A model generated the notes under the pieces. That model saw nothing but the letters and a program-made list of their open reading frames with translations, searched no databases and was not told the DNA's origin. Of a stretch of 38,157 nucleotides of DNA, positions 622 to 38,114 are shown piece after piece. Position numbers and translations under genes: made by a program. Numbering within the stretch: position 1 is the first letter of the stretch; each line of letters starts with the position of its first letter. The stretch spans positions 1 through 38,157 of the forward strand of contig SLCC01000008.1 in NCBI GenBank assembly GCA_007126035.1. Reading direction: 5' to 3'. Source of the stretch: Gemmatimonadota bacterium (GTDB lineage: Bacteria > Gemmatimonadota > Gemmatimonadetes > Longimicrobiales > RSA9).

Positions 622-1800
622 TCATACCTTGATGAAGATCCGGTAGCGGTACAGGATCGCCATGAGGCCCAGCCAGAGCAGGACGAAGGCGATGGCGAAG
701 GCGAGGGACGCATTGACCGGCGCCATCCAGGAGGCCAGGAGGTCCTGATAGATCCACGCCTTGAGCGCCATGCTCTCGCCCGCGCCCGCCGGGACCTGCA
801 CCATGTCCAGGACCCGCGCGAAGAGGCCCGACAGGAAGTATGCGGCGATGGCGTTCACGCCGTAGATCACGAAGGGCGTGGCCCATCGCCGGTAGCCCTT
901 CACGTCGATGAGCCAGTAGCAGAGGGCCAGGGAGACCAGCGCCATCCCGCCGGTGAACATCACATACGAGCTGGTCCAGAGAGGCTTGTTGATGGGGAAG
1001 GCCAGCCCCCAGAGCTGGCCCGCCAGGATGGCCACGCCGCCGGCCGCCGCCAGCCCCACCGCCTTGGCCTGCCGTGAGCGGTCGGTCCTGAGCCAGTGGG
1101 CCGCGCCCACGCCCATGAGGACCGTGCCGATGGCGGGCATGGTGCTCAGGAGCCCCTCGGGGTCCCAGGTCCGGGACCAGACCCAGAGGTGGTTGGTGCC
1201 CAGGATGACCCGGTCCAGGTAGGCGGCCAGCGTGGCCTCGGGCAGGTCGATCATGCCGGCGCCGTAGCCGGGGACCGGGACCAGCGTCATGAGCGCCCAG
1301 TAGCCCAGGAGCAATCCCACCGCCCAGGCCAGCTGGGACCGGATCCCGCCGTAGAGGACTATGGCGGCGGCGAAGAAGTAGGCGACGCCGATGCGCTGTA
1401 GCACGCCGGGCAACCGGAGCGAGCCCAGGTCCACGCTCCACCAGGGGAAGGCGTGGAGGACCAGCCCCAGCGCCACCAGCGTAACGGACCGGCGCGCCGC
1501 CTTCCGCATGAGGGCGTGGCGATCGGCGCCTCGCTCGAGCTGCTTGCCGAAAGAGAAGACGATGGCCACGCCCACGATGAAGAGGAAGAACGGGAAGATG
1601 AGGTCGGTGGGCGTCCAGCCGTGCCACTCGGCGTGGAGGAGCGGCGGGTAGACGTGCGCCCAGCTGCCTGGGTTGTTGACCAGGAGCATGGCCCCGATGG
1701 TGGCGCCCCGGAAGGCGTCCAGGGAGACGAGCCGCCCGCTCAGGGCGGTGGGCACCGCGGCCGCCGGCGCGGCGGCGGGGACCGTGACTGTGGCGCTCAT
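622..1800 (-). CDS. HGSNAT/NagX-like (DUF5009) membrane acyltransferase
   Basis: This is a 392-residue polytopic membrane protein with about ten hydrophobic segments. The N-terminus carries the family signature RLVSLDAFRGATI, followed by HAEWHGWTPTDLIFPFFLF, which holds the conserved His-x-W-x-G-W region of heparan-alpha-glucosaminide N-acetyltransferase relatives. Such proteins transfer acetyl groups across the membrane to terminal glucosamine in eukaryotes; bacterial relatives (NagX, DUF5009) often lie in GlcNAc or chitin loci. It is divergent from a GH20 beta-hexosaminidase across about 140 bases, which supports an amino-sugar role. The start at 1800 is chosen because coding signal and the DAFRG motif follow it; the frame stays open far upstream, but that part is antisense to the GH20 gene. 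The substrate is inferred. Confidence 0.85.
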   Translation of the reverse strand: MSATVTVPAAAPAAAVPTALSGRLVSLDAFRGATIGAMLLVNNPGSWAHVYPPLLHAEWHGWTPTDLIFPFFLFIVGVAIVFSFGKQLERGADRHALMRKAARRSVTLVALGLVLHAFPWWSVDLGSLRLPGVLQRIGVAYFFAAAIVLYGGIRSQLAWAVGLLLGYWALMTLVPVPGYGAGMIDLPEATLAAYLDRVILGTNHLWVWSRTWDPEGLLSTMPAIGTVLMGVGAAHWLRTDRSRQAKAVGLAAAGGVAILAGQLWGLAFPINKPLWTSSYVMFTGGMALVSLALCYWLIDVKGYRRWATPFVIYGVNAIAAYFLSGLFARVLDMVQVPAGAGESMALKAWIYQDLLASWMAPVNASLAFAIAFVLLWLGLMAILYRYRIFIKV

Positions 1801-1869
1801 GACTGGAAGGAATATATCGGGCCGGGACGGATCGGGCGACAGGGCGCTCGACCCGGCTGCCGGGGTTGC

Positions 1870-1898
1870 TTGACACCCGCCTCGGATGGGGTGTACCT
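1870..1898 (+). promoter_or_regulatory. Possible sigma-70 promoter for the GH20 gene
   Basis: An exact TTGACA at 1870-1875 is followed 17 bases later by GTACCT (1893-1898), a poor -10. It points toward the GH20 start at 1942. The -35 match is good and the -10 is weak, so this is tentative. Confidence 0.3.
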
Positions 1899-1941
1899 GT
1901 CCAGCGGTGCAGTAGAATGGACGCCCGCCCCCGGTATCGAT

Positions 1942-13136: not shown

Positions 13137-13224
13137 TGCGACGACGCATGCTGAAGTTCGTGCGCGTCTACTCCCGGCGCGAATAGTGGACCGATCCGGA
13201 ATCTCGTTGGCACTCGGCTGGGCC

Positions 13225-13274
13225 TTGACAGGGAGCGGGCCCGGGTAACACTTTGTTCGAGGGGCGAACAAAGT
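13225..13274 (+). promoter_or_regulatory. susC promoter with ROK operator 1
   Basis: TTGACA (13225-13230), an 18-base spacer and CACTTT (13249-13254) form the promoter. The palindrome ACTTTGTTCG (13250-13259), AGGGG, CGAACAAAGT (13265-13274) covers the -10 and the likely start site. Identical arms occur at two other promoters of this locus. The susC ATG is about 290 bases downstream, so the leader is long. Confidence 0.8.
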
Positions 13275-13345
13275 AGGTCGAAAATCTCGTGACGCGGAGT
13301 GGCGTTCTCGTGCCTTCTATCCGATCCTCCCGCGCCTTCCTGGCC
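13249..13345 (+). repeat. Promoter-leader duplicate, copy 1
   Basis: From the -10/operator onward, about 95 bases are nearly the same as 18420-18518 before the ROK gene. The shared parts include AAAATCTCGT, ACGCGGAGT, TTCTCGTGCCTTCTATCCG and CCCGCGCCTTCCTG. The match stops soon after, and the rest of the 13346-13546 leader has no feature I recognise. Confidence 0.75.
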
Positions 13346-13560
13346 GGGCCCACCGCGGATCGCCGTCTCGGCATCCCGTGGCCAGCCCGAGGAGGAGGAC
13401 ACCCGCCCGGGCCTCCTCCCCGACGGCGTCCGGTGGTGTGCAATCTGTGCTGTTTCGCCAAGCCGACCCCTTCGGTTCTGGCTTCTGTTCGATCCTGCGG
13501 TGTGACGCCAACCCCACGGCTCCGGGCCGACGTTTCTCCCACCTCCTTGGAGGACACGCA

Positions 13561-16500
13561 ATGACAAGCCATTGTAAGTTCAGACTCCTGCCAGCGCTGA
13601 TCGGCGTCCTGATGTGGACGGCGTCGGCGTCCGCGCAGGGCGAGACGGGATCCATTACCGGGCGGGTGGTAGACGCCAGCATGCAACAGCCCATCTCCGG
13701 CGCCACCATCACCATCGAAGGCGTGCAGCGCGGCTTCATCACGCGCGCCGACGGTGGGTTCCTGCTCACGGCGGTGCCGGTGGGTACGCACCAGGTGCGA
13801 GCGAGCATGATCGGCTATGGCGCGGCAGTGCAGGAAGTCACGGTCGTCGCCGGCGGGACTGCGACGGCGCATTTTGAGCTGCAGCCGGTGGCGATCGAGC
13901 TTGAAGAGCTCGTGGCGATCGGTTACGGCACGCAGCGGCGTCGGGACCTGACGGGTGCTGTGGCGACGGTGAGCGGCGAGGCCGTGCAGACGCCCGCCGC
14001 GCCGATCGTCGCAATCAACAACGCGCTGGTCGGGCGTGCTCCGGGCGTACAGGTGATCACTAACTCTGGGATCCCGGGCGCCGGTGCCAGCATCCGCGTG
14101 CGTGGCACGAACTCGATCGCGGCGAACAGCGAGCCACTGTACGTGATCGACGGCATGGCGGTCGGGCAGGGCACCACCAGCAGCAACCCGACGCAGAACC
14201 CGCTCGCGACGATCAACCCCAACGACATCGAATCGATCGAGATCCTCAAGGACGCCTCGGCGACCGCCATCTACGGCGCGCGCGGCTCCAACGGCGTGGT
14301 CCTGATCACCACGCGGCGTGGTCAGCGGGGCCTGGACCGGATCAGCCTCTCGTCGTCCTACGGCGCGCAACAGGTCTCGAGGCGCATCGACGTGCTGAAC
14401 GCCAGGCAGTATCGCGAGCTGCGGAACGAGGCAATGACGAATGTGGGCATGACGCCGCAGTACTCGGCGGAGGAGCTCAACGTGCCGACCTACGACTACG
14501 TCGGCGCCATGCTGCGTACGGCGCCGCAGACGGATCACGCGCTGGCGCTTTCCGGCGGTGACGACCGCACCCGCTTCCTCGTCTCGGGCAACTACATGAG
14601 GCAGGATGGAGTCATCCTCAACACGGACTTCGAGCGGTACAGCGGCCGGTTCAACCTTACGCGCGACGTGAGCGACCGGTTCCAGCTGCAGACGAACCTC
14701 AGCGTGGCCCGCGTGAACCACAACCTCGCAGACGCCGAGACCGGCGGCATGGGCCACGAGGCGCGCGGGCTCCTGGGCGCGATGATCTATGACCCGGCGA
14801 CGCCGATGTACAACGAGGACGGCACGTGGGTCCGCGGCACGACGCTCGGCGAGTTCATGGTCAACCCGGTCGCCACGGTGAGCGAGCTGATCTCGCGGCG
14901 TAACGAGTCGCGCCTGATCGGCCAGTTGCAGGGCGCATTCCGCGTGACCGACGAGCTACGGCTGCAGAGCAGCGTCGGCGCCAACATCATCAACATCCGC
15001 AACCCGTGGTTCGTGCCCAGCACCATCCAGCAGGGGTACGCCACCCAGGGCAACATCGGCGTCTGGACGGGCCAGGGCAACGACTTCCAGATCCGGAACC
15101 AGGCGCAGTTCACGCGGGCCAACGTGGGTCCGGGCAACCTCGACCTCCTGGCCGCCTTCGACGTGGAGACGAGCGACTTCGAGTGGAGCCAGAGCAACGC
15201 CACGCACTGCCCGATCGAAGCGATGCGCTGGGACAACCTGGGCGCCTGCGGCACCGCAGAGTACCCGCAGGAGGCCCACTCCGGCGCCAGCGAGAGCGCG
15301 CTCATCTCGTACGTCGGCCGCGCGAACTACAACATCGCTGACCGCTACCTCTTCACGGTCACCGGTCGCCAGGACGGCTCGAGCCGCTTCGGCGTCGAGA
15401 ACAAGTGGGCGTTCTTCCCCTCCGCCGCCTTCGCGTGGCGGCTCTCGGACGAAGCGTTCATGGGGAATCAGACCCTCTTCGACGACCTGAAGCTGCGCCT
15501 CAGCTACGGCGTCACCGGCAACCAGCCGGCGCAGGCGTACCAGTCGCTGGCCCGCATGGGCATCACCCGCGGCCCTGACGGAGGTGTTGTGTACGTCCCG
15601 TCCCGGCGCGCGCCGAACCCGGAGCTCCGCTGGGAGACGACGAGGCAGTTCAACGCCGGCCTCGATCTCAGCTTCCTGGACCATCGCGTCAACCTGGTCG
15701 CGGACGCCTACACCAGCACCACCGACGACCTGCTGAGCGTCGTCGAAGTGGCTCATACCAGCGGCTACGAGGACCAGCTGCGGAACATCGGCTCGCTACA
15801 GAACCGCGGTGTCGAGCTGGGTCTGAACACGCTCAACTTCGACAACGGGCGGGTCAGCTGGCGTTCCTCGTTCAACGTCGCGGCCAACCGGAACAAGGTG
15901 CTCGCGCTTCCCGACGGCATCGAGAGGATGCTCTTCGGGGCCCGCGGTGGCTGGGCGATTGGCGGCCACACCCACATTGTCGAGGTCGGCAAGCCGCTGG
16001 GCAACTTCTACGGCTACAACGTTCTCGGCATCTTCCAGGAGGGCATGGAATGCCACCTGGAGCACCCGCGCCTCGACGAGGGGCTGGACTGCATCCCCGG
16101 CGAGATGATCATCGAGGACGTCAACGGTGACGGCCGGATCACCGACGAAGACCGGACGGTGGTCGGCAACGCCGATCCGAAGTTCTACGGCGGCCTGAAC
16201 AACAGCTTCGCGTTCGGCCGCTTCTCGCTGGACGCGTTCGTTAGCTTCTCGTATGGCAACCAGATCCTGAACGCATCGAACACGTACCAGATGCTGGGCG
16301 CCGGGACGCTCAACGAGCGGGCCGAGATGCTGAACCGGTGGACGCCCACCAATACCGACACCGACATCCCGCGTGCGAACGCCAATCGGAGATCGCTGCT
16401 CTACTCGACGCTGGTCGAGGACGCCTCGTACCTGCGCCTGCAGTCGGTGACGCTCGGATACGAGATCCCCGCCCAGTTCGTGCCGGGGGCGAGTGAGGCG

Positions 16501-16662
16501 AGGGTGTACTTCACCGGTCAGAACCTGCTGACGCTGACCGGCTACAGCGGCTTCGACCCCGAGGTGAACAGCATGGGCGGAAGCCCGGTGATGCGCGGGA
16601 TCGACATCGGTGGGTATCCGCGCTCACGGATCGTGAATTTCGGCGTGAACGTGACTTTCTGA
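13561..16662 (+). CDS. susC: SusC/RagA-type TonB-linked outer-membrane glycan transporter
   Basis: The 1033-residue protein has a signal peptide (1-25, ASA-QG) and an N-terminal carboxypeptidase-regulatory-like domain (about 31-115; GSITGRVVDA, PISGATITIEG). A plug domain follows (about 125-255) with the RagA signatures LVGRAPGVQV, GASIRVRGTNSI, PLYVIDGM and IESIEILKDASATAIYGARG. The beta-barrel runs to the terminal NFGVNVTF, where the last Phe is the usual outer-membrane insertion signal. It imports oligosaccharides captured by SusD, powered by TonB. TTGGAGG (13547-13553) fixes the ATG. It is followed 10 bases later by susD and is preceded by ROK operator 1. The actual glycan cannot be read from sequence. 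Confidence 0.96.
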   Translation: MTSHCKFRLLPALIGVLMWTASASAQGETGSITGRVVDASMQQPISGATITIEGVQRGFITRADGGFLLTAVPVGTHQVRASMIGYGAAVQEVTVVAGGTATAHFELQPVAIELEELVAIGYGTQRRRDLTGAVATVSGEAVQTPAAPIVAINNALVGRAPGVQVITNSGIPGAGASIRVRGTNSIAANSEPLYVIDGMAVGQGTTSSNPTQNPLATINPNDIESIEILKDASATAIYGARGSNGVVLITTRRGQRGLDRISLSSSYGAQQVSRRIDVLNARQYRELRNEAMTNVGMTPQYSAEELNVPTYDYVGAMLRTAPQTDHALALSGGDDRTRFLVSGNYMRQDGVILNTDFERYSGRFNLTRDVSDRFQLQTNLSVARVNHNLADAETGGMGHEARGLLGAMIYDPATPMYNEDGTWVRGTTLGEFMVNPVATVSELISRRNESRLIGQLQGAFRVTDELRLQSSVGANIINIRNPWFVPSTIQQGYATQGNIGVWTGQGNDFQIRNQAQFTRANVGPGNLDLLAAFDVETSDFEWSQSNATHCPIEAMRWDNLGACGTAEYPQEAHSGASESALISYVGRANYNIADRYLFTVTGRQDGSSRFGVENKWAFFPSAAFAWRLSDEAFMGNQTLFDDLKLRLSYGVTGNQPAQAYQSLARMGITRGPDGGVVYVPSRRAPNPELRWETTRQFNAGLDLSFLDHRVNLVADAYTSTTDDLLSVVEVAHTSGYEDQLRNIGSLQNRGVELGLNTLNFDNGRVSWRSSFNVAANRNKVLALPDGIERMLFGARGGWAIGGHTHIVEVGKPLGNFYGYNVLGIFQEGMECHLEHPRLDEGLDCIPGEMIIEDVNGDGRITDEDRTVVGNADPKFYGGLNNSFAFGRFSLDAFVSFSYGNQILNASNTYQMLGAGTLNERAEMLNRWTPTNTDTDIPRANANRRSLLYSTLVEDASYLRLQSVTLGYEIPAQFVPGASEARVYFTGQNLLTLTGYSGFDPEVNSMGGSPVMRGIDIGGYPRSRIVNFGVNVTF

Positions 16663-16672
16663 GGAGTATCCA

Positions 16673-18262
16673 ATGAAAATCAAATACCTGATGCTCCCAA
16701 CCGCGCTGGCCGTCGTGCTCGGAGGGTGCGGCGACCTGCTGACGGAGACGCCGCGGGACTTCATCACCGCGGACATGTACTACTCGACGGAGGCCGACAT
16801 CGAGGGCGCCGCCGCCGCGATGTATCCGATCTACCAGGAATGGGACATGTTCAAGGTCCAGCACTGGTGGACGTTCGAGCTCGCCGCCGACCACGGCAAC
16901 TACCATCCGGACGAGCCCAACGCCGAGACCCAGGCGCCCCAGTACCTGAACTGGTCGCCGGCCACGCGCGAGCCGCGGTCGCTGTGGATGATGCACTATT
17001 CGGCGATCCGGCTCAACAACACCGTCATCGAGTTCGCGCCCAACGTCACCTTCCGCGACGAGGCGCGTCAGCGGTCACTGATCGCGGAGGCGAAGTTCAA
17101 CCGCGCGTTCAACTATTTCTGGCTCGGCCGCGGCTTCGGCGGCGTGCCGCTGGTGCTGTCGACCACCGACCCGGTCGATCTGCCGCGCAACACCGAGGCG
17201 GAGGTCTTCGAGCAGATCATCGCCGACCTCGAGGAGGCGATTCCGCACCTGCCGCCGACCCGGAACCAGGCGACGGAGCGCGGACGCGCCACCAGTTACG
17301 CGGCGATGGCGCTGCTAGCGGACGCCTACCGCTGGCGCGCGAACACGAACCTGGCCGACCCCACCGCCGACTGGCAGAAGGTGATCGAGCTGAGCGAGCA
17401 GATCATCAATAACGGCCCGTTCGAGCTGCTGCCCAACTACCTCAGCGCGCTGCTGCCGCAGGCGAACGCCCGCGGTGAGGAGATCTTCGCGGTCCAGTCG
17501 ACGCCGGGCGTCGGGTGGAACGTCAGCCTCTTCGGCGCCATGTTCGGCGCGCGCAACTTCGGGGACAGCGAGGGCGGTGGCTGGGCGGTCTCCTCGGCGG
17601 CCGTCCCGTTCTGGCGGAGCTGGGACCGCGACGACTACCGGTTCGAGGTGACGTACATGACCGAGGACTGCCCGGCATCAGCGAAATCGGCGGAGCCGGG
17701 CGTGGAGGGTGGCTGGATCTGCGAGCCGGGAACCGTGGAGCACCTGACCCCGGAAGACTGGGAAGGCAGACTGCCTGATGAGCCGATGGGCTTTCCGCAT
17801 GTCCGGAAATACCGCGAGACCGACTTCCGGCGAAATTTCTGGGGTGGTGGCGACGTGAACATACCGATCTACCGCCTCGCGGACATCGTTCTGATCTACG
17901 CCGAGGCGCTCAATGCCGTCGGCCGTGACGGCGAGGCGCTTACGCAGGTGAACCGGATCCGCGCGCGGGCTCGCCAGGGCACCGGCAACGAGAACCGCGC
18001 CGTCCCGGCGGACCTGCATGGCCTTAGCGGCGTCGCGCTCAAGGACGCGATCTACCGTGAGCGCGAACTGGAGTTCGCGTACGAGATGAAGCGCTGGTTC
18101 GACCTGGTCCAGCGCGGTCCGGAGTTCTTCGTGCAGCAGCTGACGAACAACGACCCGACGTCGAACCGGTTCGGCCTGGTCACGCCGGAGCGCATGCGGC
18201 TGCCGATCCCGGCGGCGGAACTGGTCAAGAACCGCAACCTCGAACAGAACCCAGGTTACTGA
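16673..18262 (+). CDS. susD: SusD/RagB-type glycan-binding lipoprotein
   Basis: The 529-residue partner of SusC has lipobox LGGC (Cys19) and the SusD start CGDLLTETPRDFIT. The TPR-like helical region includes LIAEAKFNRAFNYFWLGRGFGGVPLV, RATSYAAMALLADAYRWRA and YRLADIVLIYAEALNAVGR, and the C-terminal RERELEFAYEMKRWFDLVQRG is typical of RagB/SusD. It ends RNLEQNPGY, the usual terminal motif. It caps the SusC barrel at the cell surface and binds the oligosaccharide. GAGGAG around the susC stop serves as ribosome-binding site, ten bases before the ATG. A strong terminator follows, so susC-susD is a self-contained transcription unit. Confidence 0.96.
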   Translation: MKIKYLMLPTALAVVLGGCGDLLTETPRDFITADMYYSTEADIEGAAAAMYPIYQEWDMFKVQHWWTFELAADHGNYHPDEPNAETQAPQYLNWSPATREPRSLWMMHYSAIRLNNTVIEFAPNVTFRDEARQRSLIAEAKFNRAFNYFWLGRGFGGVPLVLSTTDPVDLPRNTEAEVFEQIIADLEEAIPHLPPTRNQATERGRATSYAAMALLADAYRWRANTNLADPTADWQKVIELSEQIINNGPFELLPNYLSALLPQANARGEEIFAVQSTPGVGWNVSLFGAMFGARNFGDSEGGGWAVSSAAVPFWRSWDRDDYRFEVTYMTEDCPASAKSAEPGVEGGWICEPGTVEHLTPEDWEGRLPDEPMGFPHVRKYRETDFRRNFWGGGDVNIPIYRLADIVLIYAEALNAVGRDGEALTQVNRIRARARQGTGNENRAVPADLHGLSGVALKDAIYRERELEFAYEMKRWFDLVQRGPEFFVQQLTNNDPTSNRFGLVTPERMRLPIPAAELVKNRNLEQNPGY

Positions 18263-18287
18263 GCGGATCCGCGGCATTCCCCCTTTG

Positions 18288-18330
18288 CCCCCGGCAGCGC
18301 GGCACGCCGCGCTGCCGGGGCTTTTCTTGT
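18288..18330 (+). terminator. Rho-independent terminator after susD
   Basis: CCCCGGCAGCGCGG (18289-18302) pairs perfectly with CCGCGCTGCCGGGG (18307-18320) around a CACG loop and is followed by CTTTTCTTGT. It lies 26 bases after the susD stop and separates susCD from the ROK gene. Confidence 0.92.
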
Positions 18331-18396
18331 ACCACGAAGCCCGGCGGCTCCCACCGCTGCCAGCGAGCACCTCGACCTGGAGGCGCCTGGCGGGTC

Positions 18397-18445
18397 TTGA
18401 CAGGGCGCGCGTCTGAAGGCACTTTGTTCGATGGGCGAACAAAGT
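18397..18445 (+). promoter_or_regulatory. ROK-gene promoter with operator 2
   Basis: TTGACA (18397-18402), a 17-base spacer and CACTTT (18420-18425). The palindrome arms ACTTTGTTCG (18421-18430) and CGAACAAAGT (18436-18445) flank ATGGG. It covers the -10, so the repressor would block its own promoter. Confidence 0.82.
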
Positions 18446-18518
18446 AGGACGAAAAATCTCGTCACGCGGAGTGCTGTTCTCGTGCCTTCTATCCGATCCA
18501 CCCGCGCCTTCCTGCCGT
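18420..18518 (+). repeat. Promoter-leader duplicate, copy 2
   Basis: This is the counterpart of 13249-13345. Outside the operator the two copies differ by only a few substitutions and one extra A. It ends about 25 bases before the ROK start codon. Confidence 0.75.
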
Positions 18519-18543
18519 ACGTGACCAACGTCTATCTCCGCCG

Positions 18544-19809
18544 GTGACCGTCGCCGCCCCACGTCAGCGAATCGCCATTGCGCTTCGGACCCCGCCGCAA
18601 CCGCCGGCCCCGGCCCCTGAGGCCCGGGGCCGGCAGCTGCCGGACCTCGCCCTCCAGACCATCTGGTACGAACAGCGGATCTCCAGAGCCGATCTCTCCA
18701 GGCGCCTCGATGTCTCGCGCTCCACCGCCTCGCAACTCGTGAACGAGCTTCTGGCGACCGAGCTCGTAGCCGAGGTGGGCAGCGGGCCCAGCCGAGGAGG
18801 ACGACGTCCGGTTTTGCTCGAGTTTCAGGACGATGCGCGACTGATCCTGGGGGTGGACATGGGGGCCACCCACGTGGCCGTGGCCCTCACGAATCTCCGG
18901 GGCCGGATCCTGGCATGGAACGAGAAGATGCACCCGGTCCGATCCGACCCCGAAGGCACCAGGGAGCTCATCGAACAGCTCTGTGAGGCGTGTCTGGCTG
19001 AGGTGCCGGGGGCGGCGCGGGCCCTCCAGGGGATCGGGGTGGCTGTGCCCGCGCCGGTGGACCACATGGACCCCATGCAACTCTCCCCCATCGTTCTGCC
19101 CGCATGGGGGGGACACAGCGGGCTCGAGTCGCTGGAGACCCGGTTCCGCGTGCCGGTCTACGTGGAGAATGACGCGAACCTGGGGGCCATGGCCGAGGGC
19201 TGGTGGGGTGCAGGGCGCGGGCTCGAAGACTTCACCTACATCAAGCTCGCCACCGGGATCGGAGCGGGCCTCATGGTTGGAGGCGAGATCTCCCGGGGCG
19301 TTTCCAGCGCAGCCGGAGAGATCGGACACGTGTCCATCGATCCGAACGGGGAGCCCTGCCTCTGCGGAAACCGGGGATGCCTCGTCACCTTCGTAGGCGG
19401 TGAGGCCCTGGTCCGACGCGCACAGGCTGGCCTCGCCGACGCTCCCGATAGCCTCCTGGCAAGAGGCGAGGTAACTCCAGGCACAATCGAGCAGGCCGCA
19501 CTCGCAGGGGACCGACTCGCCGTCAGCGTCGTCCGGGAGGCAGCCCACCATCTGGGGGTGGCGATCGCCGGTCTCCTGAATCTGCTCAACCCCGGGGCCG
19601 TCATCCTGGGAGGAAGCCTCGTTCGCCTCGGCAACGACCTGCTCCGGCCTCTCCGGGCCACCGTGGTCCAACGCACCCTGGTCAGTTCGGTGGCCGCCTC
19701 GGAGATCCGGATCAGCGAGCTCGGCCCCCGGGGCACCTCCCTTGGAGCCGCCACCATGGTCCTGGCCGAGGCGCTTCGGCATACCTCCTCTTCCGACGGC
19801 ACAAGATGA
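18544..19809 (+). CDS. ROK-family transcriptional regulator
   Basis: The 421-residue protein combines an N-terminal winged helix-turn-helix (about 37-90; SRADLSRRLDVSRSTASQLVNELL) with a ROK sugar-kinase fold. DMGAT (105-109) is the phosphate loop and VENDAN holds Asp210. GH-x9-C-x-C-x4-C (His262, Cys272, Cys274, Cys279) is the ROK zinc site. NagC, Mlc and XylR relatives repress sugar genes and are released by a sugar or sugar phosphate. Three matching palindromes overlap promoters of susC, this gene and the downstream transporter operon, so it is almost certainly the local repressor and autoregulator. The start is GTG 18544, without a clear Shine-Dalgarno sequence. The catalytic Asp is kept, so residual kinase activity cannot be excluded. 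Confidence 0.93.
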   Translation: MTVAAPRQRIAIALRTPPQPPAPAPEARGRQLPDLALQTIWYEQRISRADLSRRLDVSRSTASQLVNELLATELVAEVGSGPSRGGRRPVLLEFQDDARLILGVDMGATHVAVALTNLRGRILAWNEKMHPVRSDPEGTRELIEQLCEACLAEVPGAARALQGIGVAVPAPVDHMDPMQLSPIVLPAWGGHSGLESLETRFRVPVYVENDANLGAMAEGWWGAGRGLEDFTYIKLATGIGAGLMVGGEISRGVSSAAGEIGHVSIDPNGEPCLCGNRGCLVTFVGGEALVRRAQAGLADAPDSLLARGEVTPGTIEQAALAGDRLAVSVVREAAHHLGVAIAGLLNLLNPGAVILGGSLVRLGNDLLRPLRATVVQRTLVSSVAASEIRISELGPRGTSLGAATMVLAEALRHTSSSDGTR

Positions 19810-19862
19810 ACCTCGCCGCGCGCAGCGCCCCTGACGGCGGCCTTCGCCCTGACGTCCTCGTC

Positions 19863-19917
19863 TTGACACAAAGGCACGCGCCGGGTACTTTGTTCGCCAG
19901 TCGAACAAAGTACCCGG
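19863..19917 (+). promoter_or_regulatory. Transporter-operon promoter with extended operator 3
   Basis: TTGACA (19863-19868), a 17-base spacer and TACTTT (19886-19891). The core arms ACTTTGTTCG (19887-19896) and CGAACAAAGT (19902-19911) flank CCAGT. Here the symmetry extends to 16 bases per side, from CCGGGT at 19881 to ACCCGG ending at 19917. It is the best-conserved of the three operators. Confidence 0.85.
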
Positions 19918-19967
19918 CTTGCCCGGTTTCCGGGGACCGTTCCATGCTGCTCCACGGGAGCCTGTCG

Positions 19968-20080: not shown

Positions 20081-21661
20081 ATGCCTGATCGCCTGTACGT
20101 TGTTCGCACGGCCCTGATCGTCGCCCTGGGCGGCTTCCTCATGGGTTTCGACGCCTCCGTCATCTCGGGCGTTGTCCGGTTCATCGAGCTGGAGTTCGGC
20201 CTGTCGACGATCCAGCTCGGCTGGGCGGTGAGCTCGCTGACGCTGACGGCCACGCTGGGGATGATGGTCTCGGGACCGCTCAGCGACCGATTCGGACGGC
20301 GGGCGATCCTCTTCGTGGCCGCCCTGCTGTACGGCATTTCGGCCATCGGTTCGGCGCTGGCCCCGACCTTCGCCTTCCTCGTAGCGGCGAGGATGCTGGG
20401 CGGCCTGGCCGTGGGTGCGTCGCTGATCATCGCGCCCATGTACATCGCCGAGCTGTCACCGGCGCACATGCGCGGGCGCATGGTCTCATTCAATCAGTTG
20501 AACATCGTCATCGGGATCTCCGTAGCCTTCTTCACGAACTACCTGATCCTGCGGCTCGGGCAGTCAGACGCAGGCTGGGCCCAGGCCCTGGCCTTCGGAG
20601 ACCATACCTGGCGCTGGATGCTCGGCCTGGAGACATTGCCCGCGTTGCTATACTTCGTCGGGCTCTTCTTCGTCCCCCAGAGCCCGCGCTGGCTCATCAT
20701 GAAAGGCCGCGAAGCGGAGGCTCTTCCCATCATGGAGTTGGCGGTGGGACGCGAGGCGGCGGCAATCGAGCTATCGGAGATCCAGGCGAGCATCGCTCGC
20801 GAGGCGCAGCTGGAGAAGGGCGCGCTGCGCGATCTGTTCGTGCCCGCCATGCGCTTCGTGCTCACCGTGGGCATCGTGGTCGCCGTACTCCAGCAGATCA
20901 CGGGGATCAACTCCGTCTTCTTCTACGCGCCGGTCATCTTCGAGCAGTCGGGCATCGGGACGGATGCCTCGTTCGTTCAGGCCATCTTCGTGGGTCTGAC
21001 AAACCTGGTGTTCACGGTAGTGGCCATCCTGTTGATTGACCGGCTGGGACGAAGGCCCCTGCTGGGCGTGGGCCTCTCCGGGATCACCATCGCCATGTTC
21101 GTCCTGGCGTTCGGCTTCTACCAGGCCACCTATACCCTCGGGCCCGAGGCGACCGAGATCGTGGCCGAGCACGCGCAGGCTCTCCAGCCGCTCGTGGGCC
21201 AGACCTTCACCAGCGATGTCACCTTCAAGAGCGCGCTTCAGCGGGAGTTGGGAGCGGACGTGGCACGGCTCTACGAATCGGAGCTGATCGCCGAGGCCAT
21301 CAGCATGAATCCCATGCTCATCCTCTTCGGAATCCTGGGATTCGTAGCGGCCTTCGCCATCTCCATCGGACCGGTGATGTGGGTCCTGTTCTCGGAGCTC
21401 TTCCCCAACCGTATCCGGGGCCTGGCCATCTCCTTCGTAGGCCTGATCAACTCGGCCGTCAGCTTCCTGGTGCAGCTGGTCTTCCCCTGGCAGCTGGCTA
21501 CCATCGGCAGCGGGACCACCTTCCTCATCTATGGCCTCTTCGCGGCCGCCGGTCTGGTGTTCGTGTTGATGGTGGTTCCGGAAACGAAAGGCAAATCCCT
21601 CGAGGAGTTGCAGCGGCAACTGGTTACCTCCCCCGCCAGGGTCAAGGCGGGCAAATCCTGA
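20081..21661 (+). CDS. MFS sugar porter
   Basis: The 526-residue inner-membrane protein has 12 predicted helices and sugar-porter signatures: GGFLMGFDASVISG in helix 1, SDRFGRRAILF (loop 2-3), PMYIAELSPAHMRGRMVSFNQL after helix 4, PQSPRWLIMKGRE before the central loop, QQITGINSVFFYAP in helix 7, DRLGRRPLL, and PETKGKSLEELQ at the C-terminus. An insertion of about 60 residues between helices 9 and 10 (ATEIVAEHAQALQPLV...) makes it longer than XylE-like proteins. ATG 20081 or GTG 20069 may be the start. It is the first full gene of an operon with the glycosidase (15 bases downstream) and the phosphorylase candidate, controlled by operator 3. The likely cargo is a mono- or disaccharide released by the glycosidase. 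Confidence 0.95.
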   Translation: MPDRLYVVRTALIVALGGFLMGFDASVISGVVRFIELEFGLSTIQLGWAVSSLTLTATLGMMVSGPLSDRFGRRAILFVAALLYGISAIGSALAPTFAFLVAARMLGGLAVGASLIIAPMYIAELSPAHMRGRMVSFNQLNIVIGISVAFFTNYLILRLGQSDAGWAQALAFGDHTWRWMLGLETLPALLYFVGLFFVPQSPRWLIMKGREAEALPIMELAVGREAAAIELSEIQASIAREAQLEKGALRDLFVPAMRFVLTVGIVVAVLQQITGINSVFFYAPVIFEQSGIGTDASFVQAIFVGLTNLVFTVVAILLIDRLGRRPLLGVGLSGITIAMFVLAFGFYQATYTLGPEATEIVAEHAQALQPLVGQTFTSDVTFKSALQRELGADVARLYESELIAEAISMNPMLILFGILGFVAAFAISIGPVMWVLFSELFPNRIRGLAISFVGLINSAVSFLVQLVFPWQLATIGSGTTFLIYGLFAAAGLVFVLMVVPETKGKSLEELQRQLVTSPARVKAGKS

Positions 21662-21676: not shown

Positions 21677-23041
21677 ATGCGTAGCGATTCACGTTCGATC
21701 GGTCAGATCACCCGCGTGGTGGGCGCGGTCGTGCTCATTTCTGGCATGAGTGCTTGTGGCGCCCCGCAGGACGATGCCACGGTTACGGACCAGACGCCCA
21801 CCCGGGCCGAGATTCGCCATGCAGATGGGCGCTACCAACTCTATCTGAACGGCGAGCCTTTCTATATCAAGGGGGCCGGCCTCGAGTTCGGCGACGTCGA
21901 GCGCCTCGCCCTGCACGGCGGCAATACCTTCCGGACGTGGCGGACCGACAACAACCGGGACACAGGGCAGGAAGTCCTTGACCGGGCTCACCGGAACGGG
22001 CTCTACGTGACCATGGGTCTAGAGGTGGCGCGGGAGCGCCCCGGCGAGGGCCGCGGCTATTTCGGATTCGACTACGACGACGACGAAGCCGTCGCCGAAC
22101 AGCTGGAGCGACTCCGTGCCGAGGTGGAGAAATACAAGGACCACCCGGCGCTCATCATCTGGGGAATCGGCAACGAGCTCAACCTGGGCGCCACCAATCC
22201 CCGGGTCTGGGATGCGGTCAATGGAATCTCGAAGATGATCCATGAGGTGGACCCCCACCATCTCACCACCACCATGCTGGCCGGCGTCAGCCCGGAGCTG
22301 GTCCATGAGATCAAGACGCGCGCGCCGGACCTGGACCTGCTCAGTGTCCAGATGTACGCGGGCATCGCGGACCTGCCGCAGCGCATGGCGGAGTCCGGCT
22401 GGGACGGTCCCTACATGGTGACCGAGTGGGGAGCGACGGGGCACTGGGAGGTTCAGCAAACGCCGTGGGGCGCGCCCATCGAGAACACCAGCTCCGTCAA
22501 GGCGGATTCGTACCTGGAGCGCTACCAGACGGCCATCGCTTCGGACACCACGCAGCTGATCGGCTCCTACGTCTTCCTCTGGGGTCAGAAGCAGGAGCGC
22601 ACGCCTACCTGGTACGGGCTGTTCCTCCCCACCGGGGAGGCCACGGAGGCCGTCGACGTCATGCACTATGTCTGGAACGGCGAGTGGCCGGAGAACCGCT
22701 CACCGCGGCTGGAGTCGGCCCTGCTGGACGGCCGCACGGCCTACGACGGCATCTATCTCGATGCGGGCCAGTCCTATCCCGCCGAGGTCGTGTCCACCGA
22801 CCCGGACGGGGATGAGCTGACGTACCTCTGGGAGGTCCGGGAAGAGAGCGGGGCCACCACCACGGGCGGGGATGATGAAGAGGAGCCGCGGCTGATCAGC
22901 GGCGTGATCGACCAGCCCGCCGCCTCCCGGATCACGCTCACGGCGCCGCGGGAGCCGGGCCCGTACAGGCTGTTCATCTACGTGTTCGACGGCCGCGGAA
23001 GCGCGGCGCACGCCAACATCCCGTTCTATGTCAACGAGTGA
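21677..23041 (+). CDS. Clan GH-A glycosidase lipoprotein (GH2/GH5-like barrel)
   Basis: The 454-residue lipoprotein has a signal and lipobox M-S-A-C (Cys27). A TIM barrel follows (about 48-335) that begins like the GH2 catalytic domain: YQLYLNGEPFYIKGAGLEF, then GNTFRTWRTDNN. IIWGIGNELNLG contains Glu167 after Asn, the expected acid/base, and MVTEWGATG contains Glu250, the expected nucleophile; this spacing suits a retaining GH-A enzyme. The C-terminal part (about 365-453; DPDGDELTYLWEV and YVFDGRGSAAHANIPFYV) looks like an Ig/PKD-type domain. There is no sugar-binding N-terminal domain as in classical GH2, so the exact family is open. It lies between the sugar porter and the phosphorylase candidate, with the downstream start overlapping its last 14 bases. 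The linkage cleaved is unknown; a beta-glucan is plausible. Confidence 0.85.
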   Translation: MRSDSRSIGQITRVVGAVVLISGMSACGAPQDDATVTDQTPTRAEIRHADGRYQLYLNGEPFYIKGAGLEFGDVERLALHGGNTFRTWRTDNNRDTGQEVLDRAHRNGLYVTMGLEVARERPGEGRGYFGFDYDDDEAVAEQLERLRAEVEKYKDHPALIIWGIGNELNLGATNPRVWDAVNGISKMIHEVDPHHLTTTMLAGVSPELVHEIKTRAPDLDLLSVQMYAGIADLPQRMAESGWDGPYMVTEWGATGHWEVQQTPWGAPIENTSSVKADSYLERYQTAIASDTTQLIGSYVFLWGQKQERTPTWYGLFLPTGEATEAVDVMHYVWNGEWPENRSPRLESALLDGRTAYDGIYLDAGQSYPAEVVSTDPDGDELTYLWEVREESGATTTGGDDEEEPRLISGVIDQPAASRITLTAPREPGPYRLFIYVFDGRGSAAHANIPFYVNE

Positions 23042-26000
23042 GGGTGAGAGCGCGACCGTCGTAGATCGAACCGATTCGAACACGCGTACGATCCGGGTAG
23101 GATCCGCGCCACTGCTCGTTGCGGACCACCGTGTGACGGGCGGGCTCACGAAGATCGACGGCGAGAGTTACTACCGCATCGATCACCATGACCGGATGCC
23201 GCCGTTCTTCATGTCGGTGGTGAGCGCGGCGGATCACTGGCTCTTCATCTCGAGCAACGGCGCCCTCACGGCCGGCCGTCGGAGCCCGGATCACCCGCTC
23301 TTCCCCTACTACACCGTGGACAAGATCCACGACTCCCAGGACATCACCGGGAGCAAGACGCTGGTCCTGGCCACTCCCCGGCAGTCCCAGGGCGGCGCGG
23401 GCTTGCCAGGCGGTGCCCTTGCCGCCGCGTGGCTGTGGGAGCCCTTTTCCAGCAGGTACGCCGATCTGTACCGGCTCGAACGAAGGCTCTACAAGAACCG
23501 TCGCGGGAATATCATCCGGTTCGAGGAGGCCAACGAGGATCTGGGTCTCACCTTCTCCCTCACCTGGTCCACGAGCGAGAAATACGGTTTCGTAAAGCGT
23601 TCCGTGCTCCGGAACCACGGCGATCTCACGTTGGAGCTACGCATCCTGGACGGCATGCAGAACATCATGCCGTACGGCGTCCCGCGCGCCATGCAGACCG
23701 AGCGGAGCGTCCTGGTGGATGCGTACCGGAAGAGTGAGCTCGTGCCTGGACCCGATATCGGGATCTTCGCCCTGAGCGCCCGGCCCGTGGACCGTCCGGA
23801 GCCGAGCGAAGCGCTCCATGCCACGACGGTCTGGTCCGCCGGCCTGGACGCGGACGCCGTCCTCCTCTCGACCCGGCAGCTGGAGCGCTTCCGGCGCGGG
23901 GCGTCCGTGGAGACGGAAGAATCGGTGCGAGCGGAGCGCGGCGCCTACCTCGTGCATTCAGAAGCCATCCTGGCGCCGAAGGACCAGCGCGACTGGTTGA
24001 TGGTAGCCGAGATCGAGCAGGACGCGGCGGACGTGGTGGCCCTGGTCGAGGCCTTGAAACGACCTGCCGATCTCGTCGCGGCCGTGGACGCGGACGTCCG
24101 CGCGGGATCAGATGGGCTGAGGGCGATTGTCGGGAGCAGCGACGGCCTTCAGGTAACCGGTGACGACCTGACGACGGGGCGGCATCAGACCAACGTCCTC
24201 TTCAATGTGATGCGGGGCGGGGTATTCGATGATGGATACCACGTGGATCGCGACGACCTGCGCGCGTTTATCGAATCGGCCAACCGGACGGTAGCCGGGG
24301 AGAACGCGGCGTTCATCGACGACATCCCCGCGCGAACGCCGATACAGGATGTCCTGAGGATGGCGCGCAGCTCCGGGCCGCAGCTGGAGCGCATCTGCTA
24401 CGAGTACCTCCCCCTCGTTTTCAGCCGGCGGCATGGCGATCCGAGCCGTCCCTGGAACCACTTCACCATTGATCTTCGGGCGGAAGATGGGTCTCCGCGG
24501 AGGGGGTACGAAGGGAACTGGCGAGACATCTTCCAGAACTGGGAGGCGCTGGGCCGGTCGTTCCCTGAGTTCCTGGAGAGCATGACCGCCAGGTTCGTCA
24601 ACGCCTCGACGGCCGACGGCTACAACCCGTTTCGAATCTCCAACAGGGGGATCGACTGGGAGGTCCCGGACCCCGACGACCCGTGGTCATTCATCGGCTA
24701 CTGGGGCGACCATCAGATCGTGTATCTGCTCGCCCTGCTCGAGCTTTCCCGGGAGCACCATCCAGAACGGTTGACCGAGCTCCTGACGCGCCGGATCTTC
24801 GCCTACGCCAACGTCCCGTATCGGATCAAGCCGTACGCGGACCTGCTGCGCGATCCGCATGACACCATCGAGTTCGATCAGGCGACGGACGGCGCAATCA
24901 GGAGGCGGGTCGAAAGCATCGGGGCGGATGGCAAGCTCCACTGGCGCGAGAGCGAGGTCGTGCTCGGCTCCCTGGCCGAAAAGCTGCTCGTACCGCTTCT
25001 GGCCAAGCTGACCAACTTCATACCGGGCGGCGGGATCTGGATGAACACCCAGCGTCCGGAATGGAACGACGCCAACAACGCGCTCGTGGGTTACGGCGTG
25101 TCCATGGTGACACTGTGCCACCTTCGGCGGTACCTGGCATTCCTGGACGACCTCTTCTCCAGGGCGCCGGAGCCCGACTCGATCCTGTCAGCAGAGGTCG
25201 CCGACCTCGTCGACACGGTATCGGACGCCCTGGCGCGCTTCGTGGAGGTCGATGGGGGCGTGACGAGCGAGGCTCGCCGGAAGGAGCTCGTCGACACCCT
25301 CGGTGACGCGGGTAGTCGCTACCGGACCTGTGTCTATGAAATGGGGCTGTCGGGCGAAGGACGCCCGGTCACTTTCGCCGATCTGCGACGGTTGTTCGGC
25401 TCAGCGATGGCATTGGTTGACCGAACGATCGAGATGAATCGGCGAGAAGACGGTCTCTACCATTCGTACAATCTGCTTTCCGTCGGCGATGCGGAGTTGG
25501 CGATCGACCATCTGGATCTGATGCTGGAAGGTCAGGCCGCCGTGCTAGCGTCGGACATCCTGTCGCCCGATGAGTCCATCGATCTTCTGACGGCGCTGCG
25601 CGAGAGTCCACTCTATCGGGCGGATCAGCACAGCTACCTCCTCTATCCGGACCGTGATCTGCCCACCTTCCTCGAGAAGAACATCATTCCCCGGTCCGCC
25701 GTGAGGGATTCCAGGCTCTTGCAGCGCCTGCTCATGGAGGGGGATCGGACGCTGGTCATCCGGGACCTCCACGGGGGCTGCCACTTCAACGGCACGTTCC
25801 GCAACAAGCGAGACGTCGCGGCCGCCCTCGATCGACTCGAGCACTCCGGCTACGCCGAGCTGGTTCAGGAGGAGCGAGAGCAGGTTCTCGGCATCTTCGA
25901 GGCGGCCTTCCACCATCGCTCGTATACGGGTCGCTCCGGCACGTTCTTCGGCTACGAAGGCCTCGGGTGCATCTACTGGCACATGGTGTCGAAGCTGGCC

Positions 26001-26570
26001 CTGGCTGTTCAGCGGACCGTTTTCAACGCGCGGGACAGGGGGGCTGATGAGAAGGCGATTCGACGCCTGATCTCCGCCTACTATGACGTTCGTGGAGGCC
26101 TCGGCATGAACAAGACAGCCGAGGAATATGGGGCATTCCCGACGGACCCCTACTCACACACGCCCGCTCATGCGGGGGCGAAGCAGCCCGGGATGACTGG
26201 ACAGGTAAAGGAGGACATCCTCTGTCGTTGGGGCGAACTCGGTGTCCGCGTCATCGAGGGCCGCATCGCCATCGATCCCATCCTCCTCCGCTCGTCGGAG
26301 CTCGTGTCCGAGGCCAGGGCGTTCGAATACGTCGACCTCGACGGCAATCTGCGCACGATCGACCTCGACCCCGGGTCGCTGGCCTTCACCTACTGCCAGA
26401 CTCCGTTCATCTACCGCCGATCGCCGAGCGCGGCCATTGGCGTTGTGCGGAAGGATGGCTCCATCGCCTCGATGGAGGGGAGTATCATCGACCGGGATAC
26501 GAGCGCGGCGATATTCACGCGCTCCGGTGCCATCCGCCGCGTGGAAGTGGACCTGTCCCCCGGTCTCTGA
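23028..26570 (+). CDS. Large candidate glycoside phosphorylase (GH94/GH149/GH161-like)
   Basis: The 1180-residue protein lacks a signal peptide and should be cytoplasmic. The N-terminal half reads like a beta-sandwich (SYYRIDHHDRMPPFFMSVVS, HWLFISSNGALTAGR, LFPYYTVDKI). The C-terminal half is an (alpha/alpha)6-type region with NWRDIFQNWEALG, GYWGDHQIVYLLALLELSREH, RPEWNDANNALVGYGVSMVT (residues about 676-695) and THTPAH-like SHTPAHAGAKQPGMTGQVKED. The EWND stretch (Glu678-Asp681) aligns by eye with the DWND motif of GH94 phosphorylases, whose Asp is the general acid. Length and layout resemble long beta-1,3-glucan phosphorylases (GH149, GH161) or beta-1,2-oligoglucan phosphorylase (long GH94). 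ATG 23028 overlaps the glycosidase gene. The family assignment is by pattern only, and specificity is undetermined. Confidence 0.7.
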   Translation: MSTSEGESATVVDRTDSNTRTIRVGSAPLLVADHRVTGGLTKIDGESYYRIDHHDRMPPFFMSVVSAADHWLFISSNGALTAGRRSPDHPLFPYYTVDKIHDSQDITGSKTLVLATPRQSQGGAGLPGGALAAAWLWEPFSSRYADLYRLERRLYKNRRGNIIRFEEANEDLGLTFSLTWSTSEKYGFVKRSVLRNHGDLTLELRILDGMQNIMPYGVPRAMQTERSVLVDAYRKSELVPGPDIGIFALSARPVDRPEPSEALHATTVWSAGLDADAVLLSTRQLERFRRGASVETEESVRAERGAYLVHSEAILAPKDQRDWLMVAEIEQDAADVVALVEALKRPADLVAAVDADVRAGSDGLRAIVGSSDGLQVTGDDLTTGRHQTNVLFNVMRGGVFDDGYHVDRDDLRAFIESANRTVAGENAAFIDDIPARTPIQDVLRMARSSGPQLERICYEYLPLVFSRRHGDPSRPWNHFTIDLRAEDGSPRRGYEGNWRDIFQNWEALGRSFPEFLESMTARFVNASTADGYNPFRISNRGIDWEVPDPDDPWSFIGYWGDHQIVYLLALLELSREHHPERLTELLTRRIFAYANVPYRIKPYADLLRDPHDTIEFDQATDGAIRRRVESIGADGKLHWRESEVVLGSLAEKLLVPLLAKLTNFIPGGGIWMNTQRPEWNDANNALVGYGVSMVTLCHLRRYLAFLDDLFSRAPEPDSILSAEVADLVDTVSDALARFVEVDGGVTSEARRKELVDTLGDAGSRYRTCVYEMGLSGEGRPVTFADLRRLFGSAMALVDRTIEMNRREDGLYHSYNLLSVGDAELAIDHLDLMLEGQAAVLASDILSPDESIDLLTALRESPLYRADQHSYLLYPDRDLPTFLEKNIIPRSAVRDSRLLQRLLMEGDRTLVIRDLHGGCHFNGTFRNKRDVAAALDRLEHSGYAELVQEEREQVLGIFEAAFHHRSYTGRSGTFFGYEGLGCIYWHMVSKLALAVQRTVFNARDRGADEKAIRRLISAYYDVRGGLGMNKTAEEYGAFPTDPYSHTPAHAGAKQPGMTGQVKEDILCRWGELGVRVIEGRIAIDPILLRSSELVSEARAFEYVDLDGNLRTIDLDPGSLAFTYCQTPFIYRRSPSAAIGVVRKDGSIASMEGSIIDRDTSAAIFTRSGAIRRVEVDLSPGL

Positions 26571-28151: not shown

Positions 28152-29747
28152 CTACTGCTCCAACCGTGGCCATCTGGACCCGGCCGCGCGTAAGGCCACG
28201 ATGGCGCCGGTTTCGTCCCGCTCGAACGCGACTGTCGCGCCGCCGGCCACCGGGTGGAAGCGGTCGTCGTCCACGGGCACGAATTCGTGTCGGGCCTGGT
28301 CTCCGGTGGTGATGATCAGGCTCTGCTGGTCCAGGTCCGCCGTCACCACGAGTTGCTGGTCGGCGGTGCCGTAGCGTCCCTCGTATTCCTGGAGGGCCCC
28401 GGGGGCGACGGGGACCGGCACGATCACCGTGGGGGCGAAACCCGGCCAGTCGTACTCGCTGGCGATGGCCAGGAGCAGTTCGTTGGCCAGGGCGCCGCCG
28501 CTGTTCGAGTTGGTCATGATCACGGCGCCCTCGACTCGTCCGGCGAACCCGATGAAGGTGCCCCGGAACCCCTGGTTGGCGCCGCCGTGCTCGAAGCGGA
28601 CGGCATCGCCGCTGCCAGCGACCTGTGGGCCCAGCCCGTGGGGTCCGGCCTCGGCGGCCATCATGGCCCGGGCCATGGCAGGCTCCAGCAGGCCGGTGGT
28701 GTCACCGGCCAGGGATCGCTGTACGGCCAGGATCCAGCGGGCCAGGTCCGAGGGGGTGGTCCACAGTCCTGCCGCCGCCATCTCCGGGTAGGCGTGGAAG
28801 CGGCCGGGGACCGGTCGGGCGTCCGCACCGTGGGCGGTGGCCGCCACTGAAGCCAGCTCGGCGGGCAGGGGCTGCTGGTAGGTGCTGGCGTCCATGCCCA
28901 GGGGCCGGAGGACCCGCCGCTCCATGAAGCGGGCGAAGGGCTCACCGGTGACTTCCTCCATGAGGAGCTGGACCACGGTGGTGCCGCCGCCGGAATAGCG
29001 CCACATCTCTCCGGGCGGGATGTCCACGACCACGGGGCCCGTGTTGGCCGGCGGCGCTCCCGCCAGGACCTGGACCACGTCGGGCAGCTCGGCTCCGGCG
29101 GGGTAGCCGGGGAAGCCGTGGACGGTGAGGCCGGCGGTGTGGGACAGCAGCCGCCGCAGCGTGACGGGCCGCTCCGTTTGCCACTCGTGGGGCGAGACAC
29201 GCCAGCGCGCCAGCCAGCGGTTCACATCGTCGTCGAGGGTCAGGAGACCCTCCTGCACCAGGGTGAGGGCTCCCATGGCGGCCACCGGCTTGCTCATTGA
29301 GGCGGCCTGGAACAGCGTCTCGGTGGTGACTGTAGTGCCCGCCTCGGCGTCGGCCAGGCCGTACGCCCGGGCCCAGGCGATGCGGCCGTCGCTGATCACG
29401 GCAACGCTGACCCCGGGCACGCCCAGCTCCTCCATGCGTGCCTCCAGTGTGGCAGGGGCGTGCGCTCGGCCCTGTACCCGGGTCGGGGGCAGGAGCGATG
29501 TCTCGATGCGGGCGACCCGGGCACCGTGCCGCTCCGGGGCAATGGTGTCCGCCGGTCCCGCAGTCGCCGTCTCCCCCAGCGGCGGAGCACAGGCGACGGC
29601 GGGCAGGAGTGCCAGGAGCGCAAGCGCCTTCAGCGCGCGCTTATGGCTCCGGCGCCCCTGCGTCTCCTGGCACGGTTCGTGACCCCAACATCCCGGCGGA
29701 CCCTGTCTGGAGGATGACGAAATGCAACACCTGATATGGATAGCCAT
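28152..29747 (-). CDS. Serine hydrolase, beta-lactamase/S12 family
   Basis: The protein has the class C beta-lactamase/penicillin-binding fold: AASMSKPVA with the Ser-x-x-Lys nucleophile, RYSGGG at the usual Tyr-x-Asn position (Asn replaced by Gly), LLSHTAGL, and FEHGGANQGFRG in place of the KTG box. About 100 C-terminal residues form a lipocalin-like extension (LQEYEGRYGTADQQLVV). A lipoprotein signal ALKALALLALLPAVACAPP is visible around 29633, but no ATG, GTG or TTG precedes it closely in frame. ATG 29747 lies inside the opposite-strand small gene and CTG 29633 is another option, so the start is uncertain. It may be a peptidase, esterase or cell-wall enzyme; antibiotic hydrolysis cannot be inferred. 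Confidence 0.85.
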   Translation of the reverse strand: MAIHIRCCISSSSRQGPPGCWGHEPCQETQGRRSHKRALKALALLALLPAVACAPPLGETATAGPADTIAPERHGARVARIETSLLPPTRVQGRAHAPATLEARMEELGVPGVSVAVISDGRIAWARAYGLADAEAGTTVTTETLFQAASMSKPVAAMGALTLVQEGLLTLDDDVNRWLARWRVSPHEWQTERPVTLRRLLSHTAGLTVHGFPGYPAGAELPDVVQVLAGAPPANTGPVVVDIPPGEMWRYSGGGTTVVQLLMEEVTGEPFARFMERRVLRPLGMDASTYQQPLPAELASVAATAHGADARPVPGRFHAYPEMAAAGLWTTPSDLARWILAVQRSLAGDTTGLLEPAMARAMMAAEAGPHGLGPQVAGSGDAVRFEHGGANQGFRGTFIGFAGRVEGAVIMTNSNSGGALANELLLAIASEYDWPGFAPTVIVPVPVAPGALQEYEGRYGTADQQLVVTADLDQQSLIITTGDQARHEFVPVDDDRFHPVAGGATVAFERDETGAIVALRAAGSRWPRLEQ

Positions 29748-29898
29748 TGCCCTGGTAGTCATCTGGATCGTAGCCCGTCTCATAGCCGGCATCGCCGGGC
29801 TGCTGCTGAACCTGCTCTGGATCATCGCGATCGTGGCCTTCCTCGTCTGGCTCTACGGGGTCATCACGGGCGGGAGAAGCCGCTCCGGGTCCGTCTGA
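29722..29898 (+). CDS. lmo0937-type small membrane protein (DUF5670)
   Basis: A 58-residue protein starts at ATG 29722 with GGAGG at 29709-29713. It consists of two hydrophobic helices (LIWIAIALVVIWIVARLIAG and LLLNLLWIIAIVAFLVWLYGV) and a short basic tail (GGRSRSGSV). This layout matches the lmo0937 family of tiny membrane proteins, often stress-associated, with unknown mechanism. It lies head to head with the serine hydrolase and convergent with the M48 gene, whose stop is 15 bases away. Confidence 0.75.
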   Translation: MQHLIWIAIALVVIWIVARLIAGIAGLLLNLLWIIAIVAFLVWLYGVITGGRSRSGSV

Positions 29899-38021: not shown

Positions 38022-38114
38022 TTGCCTGCGTTGGTTCAGGATCCAGGCCGACGAGCCCACGTCGCCGGCACCAGGTGAGGATAACCAGCGGCGCCGGGCC
38101 CGGGAAGGGTCCCG

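Follow-up and report, generated by a model that had tools for sequence, protein, structure and literature searches.

What controls a glycan-degradation locus in a Gemmatimonadota bacterium, and could one regulator act on all of its transcription units? The DNA analyzed here, positions 1 to 38,157 of contig SLCC01000008.1 (the window), belongs to an assembly of 218 contigs (3.88 Mb, 98% complete) and carries genes for a SusC/SusD outer-membrane pair, a ROK-family protein, and an operon for an MFS transporter, a GH158-type glucanase and a GH149 phosphorylase, with a copy of one palindrome before each unit. A first-pass annotation had read this palindrome as the operator of the ROK protein, and had proposed a genome-wide scan at up to two mismatches, in which many unrelated hits would count against the idea, and a comparison of operators upstream of orthologous ROK genes. 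Our analysis indicates that the ROK protein is very probably a local, sugar-inactivated repressor of susCD, of its own gene and of the MFS-GH158-GH149 operon, acting through this 25-bp operator.

The 25-mer ACTTTGTTCG-N5-CGAACAAAGT matched exactly at all three places (Table 1), with the invariant arms and variable centre first described, and the palindrome of operator 3 is longer, reaching GGGTACTTTG..CAAAGTACCC. Extending the scan to 3 mismatches found no further copy in the window, as the first-pass annotation had stated, while 100 shuffles gave 0 matches. The half-sites ACTTTGTT / AACAAAGT likewise did not occur in the window outside the three operators. At the same tolerance there was no additional copy in the rest of the 3.88-Mb assembly, and the many unrelated hits that would have spoken against an operator were not seen here.

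Motif and regulator are co-inherited. Of the 395 Gemmatimonadota genomes surveyed, 48 had a close ROK ortholog (E ≤ 1e-90), 58 had the motif (≤3 mismatches) and 46 had both. The motif thus accompanied the regulator in 46/48 ROK-bearing genomes, compared to 12/347 genomes lacking it (Fisher p = 3e-46), and a backwards control pattern matched in only a handful of genomes. Of the 12 genomes with the motif but no close ROK ortholog, most had one site, usually at 3 mismatches, a frequency close to that of the control. An exact-match scan over 84,980 species returned 80 stretches, mainly from Gemmatimonadota, with the others in Ignavibacteriaceae, Melioribacteraceae, Zixibacteria/GN15, Neomarinimicrobiota, Rhodothermales and Myxococcaceae. 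ROK orthologs with 48-55% identity lay ≤8 kb from exact sites in Ignavibacterium, Zixibacteria, Neomarinimicrobiota, Myxococcus and one other bacterium, so the ROK-operator pair is present in at least five phyla. Another transcription factor could in principle occupy the palindrome with the ROK gene as a mere neighbour, given that ROK binding is something we infer and that copies inside genes of one genus might serve another protein. We consider this extremely unlikely, since the ROK gene tracks the motif over the 395 genomes and across phyla, its ortholog is the sole gene common to the window locus and the loci of relatives, and the motif belongs with the XylR/RokB operators of ROK proteins. 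In one genome (G036, locus L120; C1:3659571, 3660830), a second ROK gene, 33-35% identical, lies across the operator beside a SusC-like fragment.

The position of the sites points to how they may work. According to the first-pass annotation, each copy overlaps the -10 element of a TTGACA promoter. The TTGACA part holds, with the hexamer 18-19 nt upstream of every operator, and the -10-like hexamers, which form the left ends of the operators 17-18 nt from TTGACA, are non-consensus. A strict consensus sigma-70 promoter scan called no promoter at the three sites, so the -10 assignment rests on comparative evidence. When exact TTGACA was sought at spacers of 8-39 nt upstream of 131 distinct sites collected across genomes, it was found 18-20 nt upstream in 84 of them (18 nt, n=27; 19 nt, n=51; 20 nt, n=6), and any other spacer in this range gave one match. 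Because the sites span AT-rich Ignavibacteria and GC-rich Gemmatimonadota, this spacing reflects selection and not composition, and its fixity across genomes supports the putative -10 elements.

The predicted start point is inside the palindrome, close to the centre of the operator. Repression is favoured because of this position and because of the protein family. As far as the sites themselves go, repression is argued from their position alone, which leaves room for a ROK protein that is an activator or dual regulator on the same operators instead of a pure repressor. This is very unlikely in our judgment, as an operator within the -10 and centred near +1, seen in 84/131 distinct sites, is in a polymerase-blocking position, and for C. 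bescii XylR (also a ROK protein) and many other regulators, sites overlapping the promoter or in the 5' untranslated region are read as repressor sites (PMC8579813).

Four observations weigh against a ROK-operated regulon. The -10-like hexamers agree with TATAAT at only 2-3 positions. Two ROK-bearing genomes, G197 and G392, both drafts, lack a site, and inspection of the G392 ROK locus revealed no operator. The genome studied here offers only two independent sites: the segments upstream of susC and of the ROK gene are 86.5% identical across 126 columns (blastn), from the -35 to ~70 nt beyond the operator, and only site 3 is independent of this duplication. Since sites 1 and 2 share one duplicated promoter, their common arms count once, and we rejected the notion that invariant arms at three places are three independent observations. 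No third copy of the duplicated leader was found in this genome or in 40 relatives, and the conserved ~70 nt downstream of the operator might have a leader function. Finally, exact sites without a promoter occur inside genes in some relatives, so that a site alone is no proof of promoter regulation.

These intragenic copies, found in a subset of the Longimicrobiales genus g12 and in purH coinciding with extra in-frame residues, also give some footing to the idea that we are looking at a dispersed repeat, or at an RNA hairpin or terminator, and that the palindrome does not act as an operator in this genome. To this we attach almost no credence. All three copies in the genome of the window sit at promoters of one locus, the predicted start inside the palindrome means that the RNA would hold the right half only, and the distance to TTGACA is constant from phylum to phylum.

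The regulator itself has the features expected of an operator-binding ROK repressor. It carries the C-terminal ROK domain PF00480 (190 bits, E = 8e-56) and an N-terminal winged helix-turn-helix (HTH) closest to that of XylR 4IJA (E = 3e-7), a structure that as a whole aligns over residues 37-265. In an alignment of 12 orthologs, the recognition helix SRSTxS (S58 R59 S60 T61. S63) was invariant, the GR-rich linker GGRRP was invariant or nearly so (GGRxP in all 12), and the ExGH and CxCGxxGC zinc/sugar motifs were invariant at E259, G261, H262, C272, C274, G275, G278 and C279. The GCxE glutamate that follows the zinc motif in the aligned glucokinase (2QM1) and Mlc is missing, with GCLVT in place of their GCLET, and this position is V, A or Q across the ROK orthologs, a loss that fits a probable sensor rather than a kinase. 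Scores against the NCBIfam equivalog models for NagC and Mlc were far below cutoff (175.5/650 and 164.4/530 bits). By score and predicted function, then, the protein is a ROK regulator and not an ortholog of XylR, NagC or Mlc.

In the mechanism we propose, a ROK dimer would contact ACTTTGTTC / GAACAAAGT of the operator with its two HTH domains. With the operator starting within the -10 and its centre close to the start point, bound ROK protein would block RNA polymerase. Blocking the susCD promoter would shut off outer-membrane import, blocking the rok promoter would give autorepression, and blocking the MFS-GH158-GH149 promoter would shut off inner-membrane import, hydrolysis and phosphorolysis. 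The DNA is most likely freed when the ROK domain binds a beta-1,3-glucan breakdown product, be it glucose, laminaribiose or a short laminari-oligosaccharide, a suggestion based on gene content and on the precedent of Thermotoga BglR. The autorepression and coordinate control foreseen in the first-pass annotation are strongly supported as predictions by co-occurrence, spacing, the recognition helix and the enzymes.

The gene identities agree with this picture, and the earlier description of import, hydrolysis and phosphorolysis was correct in all its parts: SusCD, a sugar porter, GH158 and GH149. The susC gene adjoins susD and glycan enzymes are present, as in a SusCD polysaccharide utilization locus, and a strong terminator parts susCD from the ROK unit, giving three transcription units. 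The MFS open reading frame (ORF) opens at 19919, with the domain beginning at residue 65 of this long ORF and the likely start at a downstream ATG. The GH149 protein exceeded the NF058639 equivalog cutoff (1566 bits against 1150) and matched PDB 6HQ6 at 1146 bits. Together, the GH149 and GH158 identities make a beta-1,3-glucan such as laminarin the most likely substrate.

Table 1. Promoter elements, operators and genes of the ROK locus, in window coordinates.
Feature	Position	Strand	Evidence or remark
Promoter segment upstream of susC, duplicate of 18391-18513	13219..13341	+	blastn
-35 TTGACA of susC promoter	13225..13230	+	19 nt 5' of operator 1
-10-like CACTTT, operator 1	13249-13254	+	sequence
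Operator 1, ACTTTGTTCG-AGGGG-CGAACAAAGT	13250..13274	+	sequence scan
susC, SusC/RagA TonB-dependent outer-membrane receptor	13561..16662	+	TIGR04056 781 bits; GGAGG before ATG
susD, SusD/RagB lipoprotein	16673..18262	+	PF07980, PF14322
Intrinsic terminator, 14-bp stem, T-rich tail	18289..18320	+	end of susCD unit
-35 TTGACA of ROK promoter	18397..18402	+	18 nt 5' of operator 2
-10-like CACTTT, operator 2	18420-18425	+	sequence
Operator 2, ACTTTGTTCG-ATGGG-CGAACAAAGT	18421..18445	+	sequence scan
Probable ROK-family repressor, N-terminal winged HTH	18544..19809	+	PF00480 190 bits
-35 TTGACA of MFS operon promoter	19863..19868	+	18 nt 5' of operator 3
-10-like TACTTT, operator 3	19886-19891	+	sequence
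Operator 3, ACTTTGTTCG-CCAGT-CGAACAAAGT	19887..19911	+	sequence scan
Sugar-porter MFS transporter	20081..21661	+	TIGR00879 355 bits, above cutoff
GH158-type glucanase, lipoprotein-like N terminus	21677..23041	+	PDB 9ORO 309 bits, 6PAL 256 bits
GH149 beta-1,3-glucan phosphorylase	23028..26570	+	NCBIfam NF058639, PDB 6HQ6

Elsewhere in the window, a GH20 beta-hexosaminidase gene (1453-4566) lies upstream of the locus near ApbE and two GFO/IDH/MocA oxidoreductase genes, with no operator copy there, and two separate Beta-lactamase (PF00144, serine hydrolase) genes are on the minus strand (28152-29825 and 36585-38060).

Comparison with 20 ROK loci of relatives revealed a different set of genes around the same regulator. 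Apart from the ROK gene, the window genes were not found in these loci, save for one SusC match, standing alone in L120, and some weak hits to GH158, and the expectation that SusCD and GH149 would be found beside ROK in relatives was rejected. The recurring set instead comprises GH16, GH3, an MFS_2 transporter, a Big_2 surface protein and an 1100-residue protein with distant GH158 similarity. The GH16 enzymes are laminarinase-type and match the KRE6/SKN1 beta-glucan family. Even the closest ROK protein (L117, 79% identical) sits with this standard set, parts of which recur beside ROK in Ignavibacterium, Neomarinimicrobiota and Myxococcus, and GH149 occurs in only 6/395 of the sampled Gemmatimonadota genomes. 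None of the relatives' set is in the window except for a marginal GH158-like match, and a search of the whole genome for the 1100-residue protein, run without a positive control, gave no match. Regulator, operator and inferred substrate class are thus kept while the regulated genes differ.

A second feature of the relatives is the set of exact or near-exact copies inside coding genes in part of g12 (G028, G177, G324, G020 and G399), in purH, sbcC, sbcD, a kynureninase-like gene and a methyltransferase-like ORF. The 15-19 sites in G028, G177 and G324 at first suggested a larger regulon, which was rejected because most of the extra sites are intragenic (sbcC, sbcD, purH, kynureninase-like) and have no TTGACA. 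The exact purH copies (L115:3073-3097 in G028, L149 in G177, L148 in G324, L159 in G399) fall in extra in-frame residues, such as DFVRQPNKV, that sister genomes lack. All 20/20 arm bases are identical in the four genomes while the centre and surrounding loop have diverged, which points to DNA-level constraint within the gene. The sbcC/sbcD copies, two or three per genome (L099:2699, 3001, 5227 and L110:3009, 5154, in G177 and G028), have no promoter nearby; SbcC/SbcD is a hairpin-cleaving nuclease. RPE-like insertion as the general origin of the intragenic copies fits purH, whereas G177 and G028 do not differ by an indel at the sbcC sites. The kynureninase-like site of Gemmatimonadetes G028 recurs, flanks included, in a contig labelled Candidatus Binatia (isolate jk18x7bins.45; L221:5724-5748). 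The two bins come from the same sample series, and mis-binning or recent transfer may explain the match.

Taking these loci together, we tentatively offer a broader picture, although on balance we lean slightly against it. ROK and TTGACA-N18/19-operator would form a portable beta-1,3-glucan control module across at least five phyla, whose controlled genes are exchanged. Here SusCD, sugar porter, GH158 and GH149 would have taken the place of GH16, GH3, the GH158-like giant protein, Big_2 and MFS_2, with the 126-bp promoter duplication linking susC to rok. In one Longimicrobiales genus, the palindrome would also have spread into coding genes and been kept base for base, and if true, such copies would imply a second role for it.

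For Gemmatimonadota, a limited search of the literature for ROK, laminarin and polysaccharide utilization loci found nothing. The probable regulator-operator pair described here is a concrete and testable one for beta-1,3-glucan use in this phylum, traceable through at least five phyla, and would be a clear case in which repressor and promoter-operator are conserved and every regulated gene is swapped with the inferred substrate class unchanged. Searches with the motif could locate laminarin-type loci in genomes of uncultured organisms, and the promoter-operator might serve as a ready-made inducible promoter.

Compared with known systems, the operator is, by its sequence, of a known ROK type. 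The first-pass annotation did not recognize it as a XylR motif, and we rejected this view of an unknown motif: in electrophoretic mobility shift assays, the ROK protein XylR of Paenibacillus polymyxa bound ACTTAGTTTAAGCAATAGACAAAGT, with ACTTWGTTTAWSSNATAVACAAAGT as consensus (PMC9104551), and the window sites share its 25-bp frame, its outer 8-bp half-sites (ACTTTGTT / ACAAAGT) in both sequence and spacing, and 18-20/25 positions overall, consistent with 4IJA as the nearest HTH. The two systems differ in the inner two bases per side (CG..CG here, TA..TA there), in the free centre, and in placement, over the -10 here and over -35 regions there. They also differ in the genes controlled, which here are SusC, SusD, sugar porter, GH158 and GH149 for beta-1,3-glucan, and not xylA/xylB or xylan genes for xylose. 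Searching the literature for the half-site sequence together with ROK returned no relevant paper. The Streptomyces RokB site on novH, TTTGTTC-11-GAACAAA (PMC4856308), is likewise that of a ROK regulator and has the identical half-site TTTGTTC / GAACAAA, but with a spacer of 11 instead of 7, other regulated genes and poorly palindromic native sites. E. coli Mlc and NagC are whole-length ROK homologs with an N-terminal HTH, but the window protein is far below their equivalog cutoffs (164-176 vs 530-650 bits). The GH149 (Pro_7066, PDB 6HQ6) and GH158 loci have the same enzyme families, which here lie in a Gemmatimonadota locus under a putative ROK operator. A functional parallel is Thermotoga maritima BglR, another ROK protein, which represses a beta-1,3-glucan operon for laminarinase and laminaribiose transport and responds to cellobiose and glucose, but in another phylum and with a gene set of ABC transporters, LamA and BglB (PMC3750489).

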